DNA of 6,717 nt from Anaerolineales bacterium UBA877 (GTDB lineage Bacteria; Chloroflexota; Anaerolineae; Anaerolineales; Villigracilaceae), in assembly GCA_002294405.1 (NCBI GenBank), contig DBFP01000036.1, positions 23,575 through 30,291 of the forward strand, given 5' to 3'. The notes beneath the pieces were generated by a model that saw only the letters and a program-made list of their open reading frames with translations, was not told where the DNA came from and searched no databases. Position 1 is the stretch's first letter. Each line of letters opens with the position of its first letter. The translations under genes and the position numbers were made by a program. Positions 60-6,717 of the stretch are shown here, piece after piece.

Positions 60-464
60 ATGAGTGAACAAAAAATCCGCGTCCTGGTTGCAAAGCCGGG
101 TCTGGATGGTCATGATCGGGGAGCCAAGGTGGTCGCGCGTGCCCTGCGTGACGCCGGGATGGAGGTTATTTACACCGGTCTGCGCCAGACACCAGAGATG
201 ATTGCCGAAGCCGCTCTCCAGGAAGATGTGGATGTAATCGGACTTTCCATTCTATCAGGTGCACACATGGCAATTATTCCCCGCATCCTCGATCTCCTCA
301 AGGCTAATGGCCAGGAGGGCGTTAATATCTTCGTTGGCGGGATCATTCCGGATGAAGATGCCCCGCGCTTGAAAGACATGGGTGTGAAAGGGGTTTTCGG
401 TCCGGGTGCTCCCACCGACATAATCGTCAATGAAATTCGCGCCGCCGCCAAGCCATCTAAATAA
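60..464 (+). CDS. mcmA2: Methylmalonyl-CoA mutase-type small subunit, cobalamin-binding domain protein
   Basis: A 134-residue stand-alone B12-binding subunit of a split acyl-CoA mutase. With a separate large subunit it would carry adenosylcobalamin for carbon-skeleton isomerisation, most likely (R)-methylmalonyl-CoA to succinyl-CoA. The cobalamin signature is complete: D16-x-H18-x-x-G21, where His18 is the expected lower axial ligand of cobalt; S63-x-L65; and G93-G94. The length fits a lone Rossmann-like B12 domain with no TIM-barrel part. An in-frame TTG at 48 would add four residues, but the GGAGG at 50-54 lies inside them and is spaced 5 bases from ATG 60, so ATG 60 is the start. meaB follows after 3 bases. 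The large subunit is absent from the window. Small subunits of 2-hydroxyisobutyryl-CoA and isobutyryl-CoA mutases look similar, so the substrate is inferred; the family is certain. Confidence 0.9.
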
Positions 465-467
465 GAA

Positions 468-1487
468 ATGGGAAAGACTCACGTTGATTCCATCCTTTCC
501 GGCAACCTCCCCTTGATGGCGCGCCTGCTTACCCAGGTGGAAAACGGAACCGCAGAAGGGCTTGCGGTTCTGAATGAACTCTTTCCATATACTGGAAAAG
601 CGCACCTTATCGGGGTGACCGGAGCTCCTGGAACCGGGAAATCATCCCTCGTAAACCAGATCGCACTTCATTACCGCAAATCAACGCAACCGAATCCCAA
701 ACGGGTCGCCATCATCGCCGTTGATCCAACCAGCCCGTTTACCGGCGGAGCGGTGCTTGGAGACCGTGTGCGCATGCGTGACCTGTCTGGTGATCCGGGG
801 GTTTTCATCCGCTCAATGGCGTCTCGCGGGTCGCTTGGCGGTCTGGCGCAGGCAACAGCGTCCATGGTCCAGGTATTCGATGCTTCCGGGTTTGAGGTGA
901 TCCTGGTCGAAACGGTCGGGGCTGGGCAGACTGAAGTGGATATTGCCCGGTTGGCCCATACCACGCTCGTGGTCGAGTCTCCCGGGCTGGGCGACGAAAT
1001 CCAGGCCATCAAGGCGGGTATCCTTGAAATTGCCGATATCCTGGTCCTGAACAAGGCGGACATGCCGGGAGTGGATAACACTGAACGAGCCCTGAAAGGA
1101 ATGCTTGGGTTGTCACATCCGGTGGAGAAAATATTCCACCACGGGGAAACGATGGTGACCAAAGGCAGCATTCCTGCCGCCTTGTCCGGGTGGGTGCCAC
1201 CCATCCTGCGCACGATCGCAACAGACGGGACGGGCGTGGCGGAATTGGTGGTTGCCATCGAACAACACGCCCAACACCTGCACCAGGTTGATGAGTGGCG
1301 CAGTCGTGAAAAGGTCAGACTCGAAGTGGAACTCGACGCGCTGCTTACCGAAACGCTGGCGGCAAGGTTTCGTCAAAAACTTCCCGAGGGTTTTTTCGAC
1401 AACCTGGTTGGGCGGTTGGTCAAGCGGACACTTTCTCCCCGGGAGGCGGTAAAGCTGCTCCTGGATGAGTCTGAGAATGCAATATAA
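468..1487 (+). CDS. meaB: MeaB/ArgK-family GTPase, chaperone of B12-dependent acyl-CoA mutase
   Basis: A cytosolic P-loop GTPase (G3E/MeaB family) of 339 residues, the usual size. MeaB proteins gate loading of adenosylcobalamin into the mutase and help replace damaged cofactor. Visible motifs: Walker A G52-A-P-G-T-G-K58-S59; the family block D86-P-T-S-P with G-D-R at 98-100; the switch segment E148-T-V-G-A-G-Q at 148-154; the G-D-E-I-Q segment at 175-179; and the guanine-specificity motif N195-K-A-D198. The C-terminal part (about 260-339) is helical and matches the dimerisation region. The start at 468 fits the normal short N-terminal helix before the G domain. There is no good Shine-Dalgarno upstream, only A-rich sequence over the previous gene's stop, so translation is probably coupled to the mutase subunit 3 bases upstream. 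The pairing supports both assignments. The gene ends before a hairpin terminator. Confidence 0.95.
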   Translation: MGKTHVDSILSGNLPLMARLLTQVENGTAEGLAVLNELFPYTGKAHLIGVTGAPGTGKSSLVNQIALHYRKSTQPNPKRVAIIAVDPTSPFTGGAVLGDRVRMRDLSGDPGVFIRSMASRGSLGGLAQATASMVQVFDASGFEVILVETVGAGQTEVDIARLAHTTLVVESPGLGDEIQAIKAGILEIADILVLNKADMPGVDNTERALKGMLGLSHPVEKIFHHGETMVTKGSIPAALSGWVPPILRTIATDGTGVAELVVAIEQHAQHLHQVDEWRSREKVRLEVELDALLTETLAARFRQKLPEGFFDNLVGRLVKRTLSPREAVKLLLDESENAI

Positions 1488-1537: not shown

Positions 1538-1569
1538 AACCAGGATGCATTCATCCTGGTTGCTTTTTT
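1538..1569. terminator. Hairpin terminator between convergent genes
   Basis: A perfect 10-bp inverted repeat, AACCAGGATG (1538-1547) and CATCCTGGTT (1552-1561), encloses a 4-base loop CATT. On the plus strand it is followed after GC by six T (1564-1569), giving a canonical Rho-independent terminator for the mutase-subunit/meaB unit. Read on the minus strand, the same stem runs into TTCGTTT, a weaker and interrupted T tract, so it could also end the minus-strand operon whose last gene stops at 1605. Strong for plus, moderate for minus. Confidence 0.85.
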
Positions 1570-1604: not shown

Positions 1605-2747
1605 TCAAAGGTCCAATACCTGGCGGGCAATGACCAGGCGTTGAATCTCGTTCGTCCCTTCACCGATGGCGCACAAGCGCTGATCCCGGTACATTCGCTC
1701 AACTGCATATTCGCGCATATACCCGTAGCCCCCATGGATCTGAATGGCCTTGTAACAAACGCGCTCCGAAACTTCCGTGGAAAACAGTTTGGCCATGGAA
1801 GCCTCCCTGCTAAACCGCATGCCATTCCCCTTCAGCCAGGCGCCGCGATGGACCATCAACCGTGCGGCTTCGATTTCAGTCGCCATTTCGGCGATCATCC
1901 ATTGGATGGCTTCAAATTTGGCGATGGGTTGATTGAACTGCACCCGTTCCTTGGCATATGCCACAGCTTTATCGAGCGCTCCCTGCGCCAACCCCACGGC
2001 CATGGCAGATATTGCCAGCCTGCCGGCATCCAGGGTGGTCATGAATTGTTTGAAGCCTTCATTCTCCTTCCCCAGCAGGTTTGCGGCAGGGATGCGGCAG
2101 TTCTCAAAAAAGAGTTGTGAAGTCACCGATCCCTTCAACCCCATCTTTTTTTCATCCCGTCCCGGTTGGAACCCCGGGGTACCTTTTTCAATGATGAAGG
2201 AGGAGATGCCGCGCGTGCCTTTTTCAGGATCCGTTTTGGCTGTTACTACGATCACACTAGCAAGAGAACCGTTGGTGATAAAGATTTTCTCCCCGTTAAT
2301 TACCCATTCCTTGCCTTCGCGTACGGCGCGCGTGCGGGTGGCGCCCGAATCTGACCCGGCGCCTGATTCTGTTAAACCAAATGCGCCTATCTTTTCTCCG
2401 CTCAACAGCTGGGGAAGATATTTCTTTTTTTGTTCTTCTGTGCCGAACAGGTATATTGGTTCACAGCATAACGACGTTTGGGCATCATATATGATTGCCA
2501 ATGAACCGGATACCCGGGCGATCTCTTCCAGCGATATCAGCAGGCTGAGATAGTCGCCCCCTCCCCCCCCATATGCCTCGGAAAATGGAATCCCAAACAA
2601 CCCCAATTCACCCATGCGCTTGAATAAGTCCGCGGGAAACTTGTCGGTTGCGTCAATTTCTTCGGCTAGCGGGGCAATTTCCTTCTCGGCAAAAGCCCGC
2701 ACGGTTTGTTTTATCAACTGGTGTTCTTCGCTCAAATGGAAATCCAT
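1605..2747 (-). CDS. Acyl-CoA dehydrogenase, short/medium-chain type
   Basis: A 380-residue FAD-dependent acyl-CoA dehydrogenase, full length, that makes the 2,3-enoyl-CoA and passes electrons to electron-transfer flavoprotein. The N-terminal helical domain (about 1-115), middle beta domain (about 120-215) and C-terminal helical domain (about 225-380) are all present. The first family signature is at 121-133 (G-A-F-G-L-T-E-S-G-A-G-S-D) and the second spans about 336-355. The catalytic base is Glu363 in I-G-E-G-T-N-E-I-Q-R, the position used by short- and medium-chain and many bacterial enzymes. The alternative position used by isovaleryl-CoA dehydrogenase has no Glu near 240-243 (D-A-G-R). 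The ATG is preceded by AGGAGA at 2754-2759. It is the last gene of the minus-strand set, 43 bases after the CoA-transferase beta gene. The chain-length or branched substrate cannot be read from sequence. A G-rich run encodes Gly60-Gly64. Confidence 0.95.
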   Translation of the reverse strand: MDFHLSEEHQLIKQTVRAFAEKEIAPLAEEIDATDKFPADLFKRMGELGLFGIPFSEAYGGGGGDYLSLLISLEEIARVSGSLAIIYDAQTSLCCEPIYLFGTEEQKKKYLPQLLSGEKIGAFGLTESGAGSDSGATRTRAVREGKEWVINGEKIFITNGSLASVIVVTAKTDPEKGTRGISSFIIEKGTPGFQPGRDEKKMGLKGSVTSQLFFENCRIPAANLLGKENEGFKQFMTTLDAGRLAISAMAVGLAQGALDKAVAYAKERVQFNQPIAKFEAIQWMIAEMATEIEAARLMVHRGAWLKGNGMRFSREASMAKLFSTEVSERVCYKAIQIHGGYGYMREYAVERMYRDQRLCAIGEGTNEIQRLVIARQVLDL

Positions 2748-2790: not shown

Positions 2791-3567
2791 TCACTTGCCG
2801 ATCACCAACCCTCGCGGGTCAATTTCGCGCAGGATGTGGACCTGCTCATCCGTTGGCTCAGGGCTTACGCCCACATTCTCTGGAATTAATATCTCAAATT
2901 CGCTGGCTTCCTGGACTTGTTCCACTGTCACGCCAGGATGGAGGGCCAGCAGCTGCAAACATTTGGTGGATTCGTCAAAGCCGTATACACCCAGTTGTGT
3001 AATAACGCGGTAGGGACCATTGCCTGCAGGCAATCCTGCCATCTCGCGTGCCCCGGGTCCGGAAAGATAACCCGGAGTGGTGATAAAATCCAGCTTTTTA
3101 ACAAAAGTTCGCCGGGACTGCTGACGTAAAAGATAAATGGTGCGCCAGCAAAAGGATCCGACATCACTGCCTCCCCCACTGCCGGGCAACCGGGCCTTGG
3201 GGTGAGCCCAGTCCCCGATAACGGTGGTGTTGACATTGCCGTAACGGTCCATCGCCGCGCCGCCAAGGAAGCCGTAATCCACATAACCCGACTGGGAGGC
3301 TGACATCACATCGTGCATGCTTGAGGCTGCCGAAGCCTTGTAATATGTACGCGAGTCGCCCACTGATATTGGCAGCGCGGGCACCTGGGGTCCAATGCCA
3401 CCGGCTTCGAAGATGATTAAAAGCCCGGGAGCGTGCGTTCGCTGTGCCAGCATCCCGGCGACAAGGGGCAGGCCTGTTCCAACAAATACCGAGCAGCCGT
3501 TCTCAAGGAGGCCGGCAGCCACGCAAGCCAGCAGTTCGGTCAGGTTGTATCGATTCTCCTGGCTCAT
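2791..3567 (-). CDS. CoA-transferase family I, beta subunit (GctB-like)
   Basis: A 258-residue beta subunit of a class I CoA-transferase, closest in appearance to glutaconate CoA-transferase subunit B (about 266 residues). It would move CoA from a donor thioester to a free carboxylate through a glutamyl-CoA intermediate. Glu54 in I-I-F-E-A-G-G (51-57) coincides in position and context with the catalytic Glu54 of Acidaminococcus GctB. Other family traits are the G-x-L-G-G-A-A-x-D-R-Y-G-N stretch around 98-112 and the P-G-S-G-G-G-S-D segment near 128-135. GGAGG (minus strand, 3575-3579) lies 7 bases before the ATG, inside the alpha gene, and the ATG overlaps the alpha stop codon as ATGA (3564-3567), so translation is coupled and a 1:1 complex is expected. 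IpdB of steroid-ring degradation is a homologue with a different reaction; as I recall, that branch lacks the nucleophilic Glu, which favours a true transferase here. The substrate is unknown. Confidence 0.88.
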   Translation of the reverse strand: MSQENRYNLTELLACVAAGLLENGCSVFVGTGLPLVAGMLAQRTHAPGLLIIFEAGGIGPQVPALPISVGDSRTYYKASAASSMHDVMSASQSGYVDYGFLGGAAMDRYGNVNTTVIGDWAHPKARLPGSGGGSDVGSFCWRTIYLLRQQSRRTFVKKLDFITTPGYLSGPGAREMAGLPAGNGPYRVITQLGVYGFDESTKCLQLLALHPGVTVEQVQEASEFEILIPENVGVSPEPTDEQVHILREIDPRGLVIGK

Positions 3568-4580
3568 GAGGCACCCTCCATCGGGTAAGGGATATCCGGC
3601 TGCAGTTTCATCACCTGTTTTAAATGGGTGAGCTTCCGGATGCCGCCGACTTTTTCCAGGTAAGCGTTGAAATCGGGCAGGCCGAAAACGAATTCCTCGA
3701 AATATTCACGGGTGCCCTCCGGGGTTTTGGAAACCTCCAACCAGTGGGCGATATGCTCCTCGTCGAAATAATATGTTACGGGCATTTCGGTGGGGTGGGC
3801 TCCGAAGGGAACCTCGATTACAGCGTCTACCAGATAGAACGGGATCAAGGTGCGCCACGGCTGGCGCTGTATCTCCTCATGCTCAATGATCTCTTCAGTC
3901 GTGATGATGAGCCGCCGGGCAGCACGTGCCAGCTCGAAATCTTCCACCATGATCCCATCGATTTGTGCATTGCCGTACTGGTCACATCGGTGAACATGGA
4001 AAAGTGCAACATCAGGGTAGCAGGCGGGAACCAGGCCAATGGGTTTGCCGCTCCAGGGATCTTCAATCACCCTGGCCGAACTGTGTTTGATGGTATCCGT
4101 CCCCAGCATGGTCCGCACTGGCATGAAAGGCACCCCCATGGCTGCCGCTAGGAAGCGCCACTGGAATCCGGCATTGCTGATTTCGCCGGTCACCTTCACC
4201 TCGCCGCTTTCGACAGCCCGGCGTCCGCAGGGGGATAATCCGCGCAATTCATGCCCGAACGCATAAGCCACTTCCACCCTGCTGACACAACCGCCGCCGA
4301 TTAAAATGTCAATGTCATGCACGGCAGTCTTCCCGATGAGCGTTAAATCCCGCCTGTGCTGGCGTACCAGTTCATAGATCAGCGCCATGGGAATGCGGAT
4401 GTGACCGAAACCGCCCACAGCTACCAGGCTGCCATCCGGGACGTATTTTCGGATTGCCTGAGCGACAGTTGTGCGCTTGTCTGCCATTTGCCGGGACTTG
4501 TTTTCCCGCACCCACTGTCTATTTTCGTCCGGGTCGTGCCAGCCGATGAGTTCTCCGTTATATTTAACAGGATCCTTCAT
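3564..4580 (-). CDS. CoA-transferase family I, alpha subunit (GctA-like)
   Basis: Alpha subunit partner of the overlapping beta gene, 338 residues from the chosen start. The core begins with a V-P-D-G segment (48-50) followed by V-G-G-F-G-H (55-60), the usual alpha-subunit glycine loop. It continues with Y-P-D-V-A-L-F-H and D-Q-Y-G-N (188-204) and the V-P-F-G-A-H-P-T block (257-264), all typical of GctA and related alpha subunits. About 35 charged residues precede the core, which Acidaminococcus GctA (about 320 residues) lacks. An upstream in-frame ATG at 4601 would add seven residues, but GAGGAG at 4586-4591 lies between the two and is 5 bases from ATG 4580, so the inner start is preferred. 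Family assignment is firm; glutaconate as substrate is not established. IpdA-like hydrolase/lyase activity is the main alternative. Confidence 0.88.
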   Translation of the reverse strand: MKDPVKYNGELIGWHDPDENRQWVRENKSRQMADKRTTVAQAIRKYVPDGSLVAVGGFGHIRIPMALIYELVRQHRRDLTLIGKTAVHDIDILIGGGCVSRVEVAYAFGHELRGLSPCGRRAVESGEVKVTGEISNAGFQWRFLAAAMGVPFMPVRTMLGTDTIKHSSARVIEDPWSGKPIGLVPACYPDVALFHVHRCDQYGNAQIDGIMVEDFELARAARRLIITTEEIIEHEEIQRQPWRTLIPFYLVDAVIEVPFGAHPTEMPVTYYFDEEHIAHWLEVSKTPEGTREYFEEFVFGLPDFNAYLEKVGGIRKLTHLKQVMKLQPDIPYPMEGAS

Positions 4581-4742
4581 TACTTCTCCTCGCATGAACA
4601 TTTGAATGGGTTTGTCCCATGTGTTGAGGAAGGAAAAGAACCCAGCCCTGATATCATAACGCTGCCATTAGATCCTTTGGACTGCCAAACTTCTCCAGGA
4701 AACATTTCAATATTGGATGGTCGGTGTACCAGGACCCTGGAG
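4581..4742. other. Intergenic gap between the DUF35 and CoA-transferase alpha genes
   Basis: The only sizeable break in the minus-strand set (162 bases). It holds the alpha-gene ribosome binding site, a short ATGGG/CCCAT hairpin (4606-4620), and a 7-bp inverted repeat CTCCAGG (4693-4699) / CCTGGAG (4736-4742) with a 36-base loop and no T tract. I find no sigma70-like -35/-10 pair with proper spacing on the minus strand and no Rho-independent terminator. No gene fits. Confidence 0.4.
4586..4591 (-). promoter_or_regulatory. Ribosome binding site that decides the CoA-transferase alpha start
   Basis: GAGGAG on the minus strand, 5 bases before ATG 4580. The longer reading from ATG 4601 would place this site inside the coding region and has no comparable site of its own, so the shorter protein is preferred. 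Confidence 0.75.
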
Positions 4743-5285
4743 CTAATCTGCCAGGTTAAAGTAAATATCCGTTGGTTTTAGTTTGGTGTTTCTCAAGAAC
4801 CGGCCGCGAACTTTTTTCCCGATCCATTCAATGCCGGCCTCATCTGGATCAACGCCAACCAGGCGGCCCAGGAACAGGGTGTTGCATTCCTCAAATTCAA
4901 CCAGGGTCAGCACAAATGGACATTCCGGCAGGAAGGCTTCCGACCCAAAAAAGCACACGGTGAAGGCATGGATCTTGCCCTCCGGTTTGATTTCCACCCA
5001 CTCAGTCTCGCGACCAGAGTACATGTCGTGACCCCGCGGGTTGGCATAGGTATAGCCGGTTTCCGGTTCCCGCGAAACAATAAAGCGCCCATTTGCAAGA
5101 GCCGCAAAGAAGGGGGAATCCTGCCCATATGAATAGTTGTAATCAATCTTGTAGGGCTGCTTGATCACGATGGGGGACATCTCTTTTAATATCGAGAGAT
5201 CATCTCCAGTGGGAAAAGGAACGCTGAAAACAACCGTACCTTCCAGGTTATCCTCGATTCTGTTTGATATTATTTTCTTGGTCAT
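4743..5285 (-). CDS. DUF35 OB-fold protein with degenerate zinc ribbon, thiolase partner
   Basis: A 180-residue protein of the DUF35 family (rubredoxin-like zinc ribbon plus OB fold), whose members bind thiolase-superfamily enzymes and often help position acyl-CoA. A long N-terminal stretch (about 1-56) precedes the family's S-P-F-F-x-x-L-x-N-G entry (57-66). The ribbon region is 72-91 and the OB fold about 95-165, with C-F-F-G-S-E-A-F at 111-118 and L-V-G-V-D at 142-146. The ribbon keeps Gly77, Pro83, Arg84, Gly91 and the E-T-E-W exit, but the four expected cysteines are Glu73, Thr76, Asp87 and Ser90. The only cysteines are 111, 122 and 134, all outside the ribbon. AGGAG (5295-5299) overlaps the TAG stop of the thiolase gene, so the two genes are tightly coupled. 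This strongly suggests one complex with the thiolase. Zinc binding is doubtful; a structural or CoA-binding role is inferred. Confidence 0.85.
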   Translation of the reverse strand: MTKKIISNRIEDNLEGTVVFSVPFPTGDDLSILKEMSPIVIKQPYKIDYNYSYGQDSPFFAALANGRFIVSREPETGYTYANPRGHDMYSGRETEWVEIKPEGKIHAFTVCFFGSEAFLPECPFVLTLVEFEECNTLFLGRLVGVDPDEAGIEWIGKKVRGRFLRNTKLKPTDIYFNLAD

Positions 5286-5297
5286 GGCGTCTTTCTC

Positions 5298-6656
5298 CTA
5301 TTTTTCCTGTTCCAGGATGCTGACTGTCACATAGGTGCCTGTCCCCGCGTGGGAGTGGATGGCACCCCGCCGGGCATTCGGGACCTGCAGGGTTGGGTCA
5401 CCAAAATGCTTCTTGATGGTCCCCTGGAGCTGCCACAATGCAAATACTCCCTGCATCAGGCCGGTCGCCCCAACCGGATGCCCGCAGGCGATCAGCCCAC
5501 CGGAGGGGTTCACCGGGCAGACCGTCCCTTCTGGTAATTTAAGCCCATAATCAATACCGGGCATGAAGGTCTTTCCGCTGGTTGCAAATGACCCGCCCTC
5601 CCCATAACGGCATAATCCCATGTCCTCATAAGTCTGGATTTCTGACGAGGTATAGGCGTCGTGCAGTTCGATAAAATCCATCTCGTGCAGCGGATCGGAA
5701 AGCCCGGCGTTCTTGTAAGCTTCCCGCGAAGCCATCCTCCCAGCCCGAAACGAGTGGACCCCCGGGTAGCGGAATCCCTTTTTCCACAGTTTTTTATAAT
5801 AACCCTGGGCATCATCATTCATTTCATTGGGCAGCGCGTTGTACCTGTAGAAATCATCATAGGATTGGTGGGGGCGATCCGCCATGCGCATGGCATCCGT
5901 GCCGCGGCCAATCCCGGTGACGCACACGCGTGGAATCCGCAGACCGGAAGCCTTCTCCAATTTTGTCAGGCCGTCTTCCGAGCAGAAGATGACCGCTGCG
6001 GCACCATCACTCATCACGCAAATATCGTTGCGGGTGAGCGGCCAGGCTACCATTGGCGACGAACGTACATCTTCAATGGTCAAGCGCTGACGTTTTTGGG
6101 CGTATGGATTGTGGTATGCATTGATGTGATTTTTAACCGAGACGTGGGCCAGCTGTTCCACTGTCGTCCCGAATTCTGCCATGTGGCGGGTGACCATCAT
6201 GGCATAGTACCCGGAGTAAAACCCTCCCACGGGATAATCAAAGGAAATATCCGAGGCCAGGGCAATAAACTCGTTGCCTTTCCAGGTTTCAACATGGCTC
6301 ATTTGTTCAAAGCCAAATGCCAGGCAGATATCCATGTATCCCGAGGCGACGGCTTTCCATCCTTCCTGGAAGCAAATCCCACCTGTGGCTCCGCCCCCCT
6401 CCACGCGGTGCGACGGCTTGGGGCACAGCCCCAGGTAATCCTGGGCCATGATGCCCGCCATGAGCTGGCGCGTGAAATGGTCGGAGAAATAAGATGCCAC
6501 ACTGCCATCGACCAATTCGAAGAACTGGGGGTGTTCTATTCCCAGGTCGGCAAGCGCATAATCGTAGGCCTCTTTCACAAGACCTTGGAAAGTTTTATCA
6601 GGGCGGGCTTTGGCAAATTTAGAGACTCCTCCCGAAACAACATAAACTGGTCGCAT
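5298..6656 (-). CDS. Thiolase-superfamily protein (SCP-x/lipid-transfer type) lacking the nucleophilic Cys
   Basis: A 452-residue thiolase-fold protein, longer than the usual 385-400 residues; much of the extra length appears to be around 260-310. The N-terminal half should carry V-E-x-x-C-A-S/T-G. Here it reads V85-E-G-G-G89-A-T-G92, so glycine replaces the cysteine that forms the acyl-enzyme; Cys95 nearby is six residues too late. The E-L-H332-D-A-Y motif and the C-G-H393-P-V-G-A-T-G motif of the C-terminal half are intact. The C-terminal H-S-H-A-G-T-G-T segment (434-441) takes the place of the second catalytic cysteine loop, as in other DUF35-linked thiolases. AGGAG at 6665-6669 lies 8 bases before the ATG. 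It is the first gene of the visible minus-strand set, 12 bases before the DUF35 gene. Automated annotation would likely say acetyl-CoA acetyltransferase; classical thiolysis seems unlikely. An aldolase/lyase or other CoA-ester reaction is inferred. Confidence 0.85.
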   Translation of the reverse strand: MRPVYVVSGGVSKFAKARPDKTFQGLVKEAYDYALADLGIEHPQFFELVDGSVASYFSDHFTRQLMAGIMAQDYLGLCPKPSHRVEGGGATGGICFQEGWKAVASGYMDICLAFGFEQMSHVETWKGNEFIALASDISFDYPVGGFYSGYYAMMVTRHMAEFGTTVEQLAHVSVKNHINAYHNPYAQKRQRLTIEDVRSSPMVAWPLTRNDICVMSDGAAAVIFCSEDGLTKLEKASGLRIPRVCVTGIGRGTDAMRMADRPHQSYDDFYRYNALPNEMNDDAQGYYKKLWKKGFRYPGVHSFRAGRMASREAYKNAGLSDPLHEMDFIELHDAYTSSEIQTYEDMGLCRYGEGGSFATSGKTFMPGIDYGLKLPEGTVCPVNPSGGLIACGHPVGATGLMQGVFALWQLQGTIKKHFGDPTLQVPNARRGAIHSHAGTGTYVTVSILEQEK

Positions 6657-6717
6657 AAGTCTGTCTCCTTTTTCTTGGGGTTAAGGTATTTTCATGGTTG
6701 CGATAATTTTATACCTG

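Follow-up and report, generated by a model that had tools for sequence, protein, structure and literature searches.

A conserved cysteine-less, histidine-retaining clade of the thiolase superfamily with a DUF35 partner, a candidate C–C lyase of Anaerolineae and other prokaryotes

The thiolase-fold protein encoded in a 6,717-nucleotide stretch of DNA from Anaerolineales bacterium UBA877 (the window; Table 1) belongs, as judged from sequence comparisons, to a widespread bacterial and archaeal clade, conserved within the thiolase superfamily, that lacks the nucleophilic cysteine, retains its histidines, and has a DUF35 protein as partner. This protein, here called THIO, probably breaks C–C bonds by a non-thiolase route, perhaps like that of the steroid side-chain aldolases. 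We give about an even chance to the more specific proposal that THIO and its DUF35 partner would form a two-protein, Cys-free C–C lyase, with retro-aldol cleavage of 3-hydroxyacyl-CoAs as its most likely reaction. For the thiolase superfamily, the Cys-to-Gly replacement is already published for CtSal and MsTLP1; what the described Cys-less enzymes do not share with the THIO family is its combination of a lost nucleophile with the histidine of the HDx motif instead of tyrosine, the retained GHP motif, and the fixed His436. No paper on such a His-keeping, Cys-less family was found in a search of the open-access literature. This combination makes the family a test of how the thiolase fold changes its reaction. 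Many of the 240 homologues considered below are named acetyl-CoA C-acetyltransferase in their source; if they are lyases, pathways reconstructed for uncultured Anaerolineae and other organisms with these proteins taken as thiolases would have the wrong cleavage step.

Table 1. Features of the window and the basis of their assignment.
Feature	Coordinates	Strand	Basis
Methylmalonyl-CoA mutase B12-binding subunit and meaB, 3 bp apart	60–1487	+	Domain search
Stem-loop, 10 pairs, T tail, between meaB and the convergent acyl-CoA dehydrogenase gene	1538..1561	.	Scan total not above shuffles
Acyl-CoA dehydrogenase	1605..2747	-	Best NCBIfam model acryloyl-CoA reductase-like, 492.8 bits (cut-off 640)
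CoA-transferase beta subunit; nearest 1poi_B	2791..3567	-	Glu of FEAGG aligns with Glu of 1poi_B (VESGL)
CoA-transferase alpha subunit; nearest solved relative glutaconate CoA-transferase 1poi_A	3564..4601	-	Domain and structure-sequence search
DUF35 (OB_ChsH2_C) protein, 180 aa, 12 bp 3' of THIO	4743..5285	-	Domain search
Degenerate zinc-ribbon region of DUF35 protein, no Cys	5013..5090	-	Homologue comparison
THIO, Cys-less thiolase-fold protein, 452 aa	5298..6656	-	Thiolase_N, Thiolase_C, Thiolase_C_1 domains
HSHAGTGTY, residues 434–442	5331..5357	-	Homologue columns
CGHP, residues 391–394	5475..5486	-	His393 240/240, Cys391 226/240
HDAY, residues 332–335; His332 at the thiolase HDCF/HDAF His site and the Ltp2/Sal catalytic Tyr site	5652..5663	-	Alignments; catalytic roles from PMC12329534
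Family-specific stretch, ~residues 256–300, largely without counterpart in Cys thiolases	5757..5891	-	HHalign and conservation
VEGGGATG, residues 85–92, site of thiolase nucleophile motif	6381..6404	-	HMMER and HHalign register
Gly89 codon GGA replacing nucleophilic Cys	6390..6392	-	Sequence and homologue columns
Shine–Dalgarno AAGGAG, 8 nt 5' of THIO ATG	6665..6670	-	Sequence

The original prediction, made from the window alone, had recognized glycine at the nucleophile position. Its placing of VEGGGATG at residues 85–92 holds, but its end coordinate of 6378 does not, since the motif runs from 6404 to 6381 and 6378 includes Gly93. The codon, read at 6392–6390, is indeed two changes away from TGC or TGT, and the open frame, His332 (HDAY), His393 (CGHP), and ribosome binding site that it described as intact were all borne out in the sequence. 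HMMER paired the motif with IEAACASG (7yvy), VEAACASG (6esq), VQSACSAG (7pxp), and VNNNCSTG (6hsj); among the five solved relatives with alignments, position 89 faced Cys in all except 4yzo, which has Ser. With a profile built from eight Cys thiolases, HHalign gave the same register, with Gly89 at the nucleophilic Cys, and in a profile–profile alignment with seven Ltp2-like proteins, Gly89 aligned with Gly.

Conservation was examined in two sets of nearest homologues, the 120 nearest the window THIO (set 1) and the 120 nearest a 58%-identical member (set 2), these being the best 120 of 5809 and the best 120 of 7293 matches. The proposed check for Gly89 in close homologues gave Gly in all 240, including 120/120 of those nearest the window, from Anaerolineae to Thermoplasma acidophilum. 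Genome loci were taken for 80 of 235 relatives, the nearest contigs being Anaerolineae/Chloroflexi MAGs (94% for L001 and 93% for L002), and all four Gly codons were used at this site across the 80 loci (GGC 46, GGG 19, GGT 8, and GGA 7). These two observations indicate that the glycine is old and under selection and is neither chance nor an error, in line with the earlier view that a single sequencing error is unlikely. By source name, the sets include Thermoplasma acidophilum, Carboxydothermus pertinax, other Bacillota, and Dehalococcoidia, and the members in the first two organisms make an assay feasible. The top NCBIfam model for THIO was NF004982 (PRK06365, "thiolase domain-containing protein"), an equivalog model without assigned function, which matched at full length with 611.9 bits, below its cut-off of 695. 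Because a 66%-identical protein (L091) reached 743.5 bits, the window protein represents a divergent branch adjoining the PRK06365 family.

The second and third thiolase catalytic positions (Asn or His, and the His of GHP) are retained: His332 occurs in 239/240 homologues, the remaining one having Tyr, and His393 in all of them. Ala334 lies at the site of the Cys in HDCF of SCP-2 thiolases and in YDCY of Sal, as published. Altogether, 98 residues are invariant across the window THIO and the 240 homologues in bacteria and archaea. Asp260, Arg261, Pro262, Tyr287, Pro298, and Gly299 are invariant in the family-specific stretch, and His434, Ser435, His436, and Tyr442 near the C-terminus are each present in 240/240. 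His436 was found in 21/21 family rows of the tree described below and in L100–L102, but in 0/8 Cys thiolases, 1/7 Ltp2-like rows, and 1/6 other rows, whereas His434 was present in 3/8 Cys thiolase rows.

A DUF35 gene lay downstream of THIO, on the same strand and within ~350 bp, at 78/80 loci, and the partner that characterizes the Ltp2/Sal aldolases was thereby found at the gene level, as adjacency. At the two other loci, the L069 sequence stops ~145 bp past THIO, whereas L039 has room yet no match. The window DUF35 protein had no match to the PF12172 zinc ribbon (zf-ChsH2) and has 0 Cys in place of a four-Cys ribbon. The 120 nearest DUF35 homologues all have 0–2 zinc-ribbon Cys, and at least four occurred in 14/96 DUF35 locus rows, some of which represent the same genome twice; four or more are kept by the deeper members L117 and L118 and by seven Myxococcota/Deltaproteobacteria loci. 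The zinc ribbon has thus decayed in the clade of the window and been retained in deeper relatives.

An alignment and tree with Ltp2-like and Cys thiolase rows, which had been suggested as a check, confirmed that the nucleophilic Cys is absent and that Gly is family-wide. The tree comprised 45 chosen rows, with the motif columns excluded and long branches flagged. Eight rows have Cys at position 89, each together with His332 and GHP, and the other 37 all have Gly. Among the Gly rows, both histidines occur only in the THIO family (21 rows, HDAY/HDAF and GHP) and in L100/L101 (HDAF, MHA), so that both histidines without the Cys are a rare combination in this 45-row sample. The THIO family forms one clade (support 98/87), which adjoins L100/L101 and then L102 (YDSY, GAP). 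The seven Ltp2-like rows form a separate branch with 100/100 support, and L088/L090, reading EAAGASG with YDAY/FDMF, form a separate Gly clade beside the Cys thiolases. At least two changes between Cys and Gly are required on the tree, indicating that the switch is recurrent.

The comparison with Ltp2 made in the original prediction is therefore only partly upheld: the glycine is shared, but the family keeps HDAY and GHP and lies outside the Ltp2-like branch (a placement judged with the seven Ltp2-like rows standing in for Sal and a characterized Ltp2). GHP occurs in none of the seven Ltp2-like rows, two of which read GH. As described in PMC12329534, the base of Ltp2/Sal is the Tyr of Y-D-x-F/Y, where THIO has His332. 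The same source describes CtSal of Comamonas testosteroni as a bile acid side-chain aldolase with a thiolase fold and an accompanying DUF35 domain, in which Gly replaces Cys and, in a model, the substrate hydroxyl is bound by the backbone of Gly89; the enzyme is said to be incapable of thiolysis. CtSal and the THIO family thus share the fold, the Gly for Cys, and the DUF35 association; however, by the paper's description of Sal (Y302-D-C304-Y, with Tyr and Cys essential) rather than its sequence, THIO differs in reading H-D-A-Y, and DUF35 is a separate gene beside THIO whereas it is a domain of the hydratase Shy in the Sal system (PMC12329534). TcLtp2 with its ChsH2 DUF35 (the same paper; L103 as proxy) likewise shares the Gly at the Cys site and the DUF35 partner, but both Ltp2 and L103 read YDHF with the catalytic Tyr, and L103 has no GHP and stands apart from the THIO family. 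The Ltp2-like protein of L103 scores above the PRK07855 cut-off and also has GGG at the nucleophile site, and upstream of its gene lies one for a MaoC-like/zinc-ribbon/OB protein. MsTLP1 of Mycobacterium smegmatis has a thiolase fold with Gly102 for Cys and no thiolase activity; it differs in being monomeric, in carrying an added C-terminal domain, and in not conserving the remaining thiolase fingerprints (PMC3406046). By sequence score, the top solved relatives of THIO are 6esq and 7yvy (archaeal-type acetoacetyl-CoA thiolase) and 7pxp (BbsB, benzoylsuccinyl-CoA thiolase), which resemble it in HDAF or HDCF and GHP or GHA; they keep the nucleophilic Cys, whereas the THIO family is set apart by Gly89, a longer linker, and an invariant His436. 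According to PMC12329534, the complexes of the M. thermolithotrophicus thiolase and of BbsB also have DUF35 partners.

In the window, the gaps between the minus-strand genes from THIO onward are 12, 141, -4, and 43 bp, so THIO to the acyl-CoA dehydrogenase (ACAD) may form one operon. The mutase and meaB genes are convergent with it, and the stem-loop at the junction is a possible candidate terminator; an Rfam search of the window returned nothing reaching the gathering score. An IpdAB-like hydrolase was considered for the CoA-transferase and rejected, because both subunits score higher with glutaconate CoA-transferase and the Glu of FEAGG, which we take to be the catalytic residue, is kept. 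A methylmalonyl-CoA mutase large subunit in a related contig (L002:3174-4850) has a good TIGR00641 score yet reads AIHATGQ near the substrate Tyr site, where known mutases read RGPYATMY.

Within 4 kb of THIO, the 80 loci contained ACAD (15), methylcrotonyl-CoA carboxylase (MCC) beta (10), CoA-transferase (9), methylmalonyl-CoA mutase large subunit (6), CitE-like (6), ETF (5), crotonase (2), MaoC (2), canonical thiolase (1), and 3-hydroxyacyl-CoA dehydrogenase genes (1, with one type searched). One of the 15 ACAD loci is weak (L025, 26% identical, opposite strand). None of the neighbors searched for was found at 45/80 loci, only 49/80 loci spanning 3 kb on both sides. Two related genomes (L118 and L119) have the order THIO-DUF35-MaoC hydratase-ACAD, which parallels the TcLtp2-type set of ACAD, MaoC, DUF35, and thiolase-like genes, a set that the papers describe for steroid side-chain cleavage by the aldolase pathway. 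At L003, a canonical Cys thiolase and a 3-hydroxyacyl-CoA dehydrogenase occur near the pair, as in ordinary beta-oxidation. AMP-forming CoA ligases were found near the pair at L005, L020, L036, L053 (4.6 kb off), L068, L071, and L010; the first six are acetate ligase-like, L005, the sole one scored, being below the cut-off. The ligase adjoining a 39% relative (L120) is an acetoacetate-CoA ligase (820 bits against a cut-off of 521), and the L010 ligase is 70% identical to it. The carboxylase found near 10/80 loci was judged not to be a propionyl-CoA carboxylase: the top solved matches at L045 were AccD1 (4q0g) and methylcrotonyl-CoA carboxylase (3u9r) at 779–789 bits, and among classical propionyl-CoA carboxylase beta subunits none scored above 1vrg at ~297 bits, although 9tps, an entry with propionyl-CoA carboxylase as its deposited name, gave 760.6 bits.

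The inference in the original prediction that THIO catalyzes a different reaction survives in part. Ordinary Cys-dependent thiolysis is very unlikely, because a family-wide Gly stands in for the nucleophile in proteins whose thiolase domains and remaining motifs are intact; catalytic residues of the Ltp2 type were not found. In the proposed mechanism, the pair would cleave (or form) the C–C bond adjoining a CoA thioester without an acyl-enzyme. An acid would be converted to its CoA ester, and an acyl-CoA dehydrogenase and a hydratase would yield the 3-hydroxyacyl-CoA, such neighbors supplying the substrate without a 3-hydroxyacyl-CoA dehydrogenase. The backbone NH of Gly89 and the cavity left by the Cys would hold the beta-hydroxyl, as modeled for Gly89 of CtSal, and His332, in place of the Ltp2/Sal Tyr, would remove its proton. 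The C–C bond would then break to give an aldehyde or ketone and an acyl-CoA enolate, which His393 (or His436) would help to hold and protonate. What remains without the Cys, two histidines together with a Gly NH directed at the beta carbon, would suit such a retro-aldol cleavage of 3-hydroxyacyl-CoA. Probably, either different lineages use different substrates or the substrate is a branched short-chain 3-hydroxyacyl-CoA. Gly89 with its four codons, the four histidines, the DUF35 neighbor (as DUF35 also accompanies CtSal and an OB protein gene the L103 Ltp2-like gene), the ACAD/MaoC order in L118/L119, the ACAD genes near 15/80 loci against 3-hydroxyacyl-CoA dehydrogenase near one, and the L046 operon described below count in favor of a C–C lyase. 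Counting against it are the His in place of the Ltp2/Sal Tyr, the lack of a proven second acid, the 45/80 loci without the searched neighbors, the crotonase or MaoC genes within 4 kb at only 4/80 loci, the beta-oxidation-like neighbors at L003, and the fact that no single substrate suits all loci.

Retained histidines without the Cys also meet the needs of a decarboxylase or a hydrolase. KSQ ketosynthase domains, in which the Cys is replaced and which decarboxylate, provide a model for a decarboxylase of malonyl- or methylmalonyl-type CoA esters that works with two His and no Cys. We consider this unlikely, although His332 and His393 are kept and the Cys is lost, methylmalonyl-CoA mutase parts adjoin in the window, and the mutase large subunit lies within 4 kb at 6/80 loci. 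According to PMC12329534, TbSLP slowly decarboxylates malonyl-CoA, but CtSal, with the same Gly, leaves it undecarboxylated. Moreover, few loci have mutase genes nearby, and the ACAD and MaoC neighbors would be left unexplained. Since the His of the thiolase GHP motif activates the nucleophile, His393 might instead activate water, in the space that Cys89 would fill, for a retro-Claisen hydrolysis of 3-ketoacyl-CoA. The invariance of this His, the acetoacetate-CoA ligase beside the L120 relative, and its 70% homologue beside the L010 pair are compatible with such a hydrolase, which is nevertheless also improbable and ranks next: it would waste energy beside CoA-activating enzymes, 3-hydroxyacyl-CoA dehydrogenase is seldom near, and we know of no precedent for it in the thiolase fold.

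That THIO is a thiolase whose nucleophile has moved to Cys391, Cys213, or Cys95 seems less probable again. Cys213 is present in 240/240 homologues and Cys391 in 226/240, many source names speak of acetyl-CoA C-acetyltransferases, and some loci are tied to acetoacetate and leucine metabolism; however, no Cys aligns at the nucleophile site. Cys391 is Ala, Ser, or Thr in 14/240, Thermoplasma acidophilum among them, and Cys95, which the original prediction had named as a conceivable residue at the nucleophile position, lies six residues beyond it and, though kept by 118/120 of set 1, is missing in about half of set 2 (Cys in 57/120). The Cys213 column is also Cys in 3/8 Cys thiolases and 6/7 Ltp2-like rows and is therefore not special to the THIO family. 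The lowest probability goes to a pseudoenzyme serving as a non-catalytic scaffold or CoA-binding subunit, for which the lost nucleophile and the lost DUF35 zinc ribbon in the clade of the window would speak, but against which stand the 98 invariant residues, including His, Tyr, Arg, and Asp, that bacteria and archaea share.

To return to the C–C lyase reading, one locus has the pair inside an apparent leucine operon. In a Myxococcales MAG (L046, genome G330), the plus strand carries MCC beta (64% identical to that of L045), crotonase (below every NCBIfam cut-off), THIO, DUF35, biotin carboxylase, and biotin carrier genes, with THIO-DUF35 in what we take to be the HMG-CoA lyase place of the liu operon order. 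In this genome, searches found neither a classical HMG-CoA lyase (E ≤ 1e-50) nor a CitE-type lyase (E ≤ 1e-20), an absence that MAG incompleteness could explain. A role in leucine breakdown through MCC was rejected as a general one. Among 301 surveyed genomes of Chloroflexota, 4/10 with the family and 117/291 without it carried MCC beta (E ≤ 1e-160; Fisher p = 1); G086, G244, and G246, which match NF004982 with other motifs, were excluded from the 10. Classical HMG-CoA lyase was rarer with the family (1/10 versus 150/291, p = 0.01, uncorrected for relatedness). In the genomes of 50 of the 80 loci, classical HMG-CoA lyase was found in four (E ≤ 1e-50; three above the cut-off) and MCC beta in 13 (E ≤ 1e-140), of which one had a classical lyase, seven the CitE type, and five neither. 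The lower rate of the classical lyase is partly due to the CitE-MaoC type of leucine operon; the CitE homologue Rv2498c has an (R)-HMG-CoA lyase role, according to PMC6689899. As the leucine-type carboxylase is absent from 6/10 Chloroflexota and 37/50 family genomes, no single substrate fits all loci. It is conceivable, if rather doubtful, that the pair would constitute a third, unrecognized HMG-CoA or branched 3-hydroxyacyl-CoA lyase, a His-based retro-aldolase on the thiolase fold that replaces the classical and CitE-type lyases in leucine/isovalerate breakdown in some Myxococcota, Chloroflexota, and perhaps archaea.

Three genomes (G334, G339, and G340) have an MCC-like operon away from the pair, which holds a BKACE gene in the two long-enough stretches. 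Such genes for a beta-keto acid cleavage enzyme (BKACE, PF05853) follow crotonase in Deltaproteobacterial/Myxococcal MCC-like operons (L126:4925-5344 and L127:2689-3564). Further Cys-less thiolase-like genes, with the motifs TTGGTVG, MDGSTA, EGDGTFG, and TTGGTTG, were found in one Anaerolineae genome (L003:11256-13567 and L089; G001 contig C195), on the same contig as a family member.
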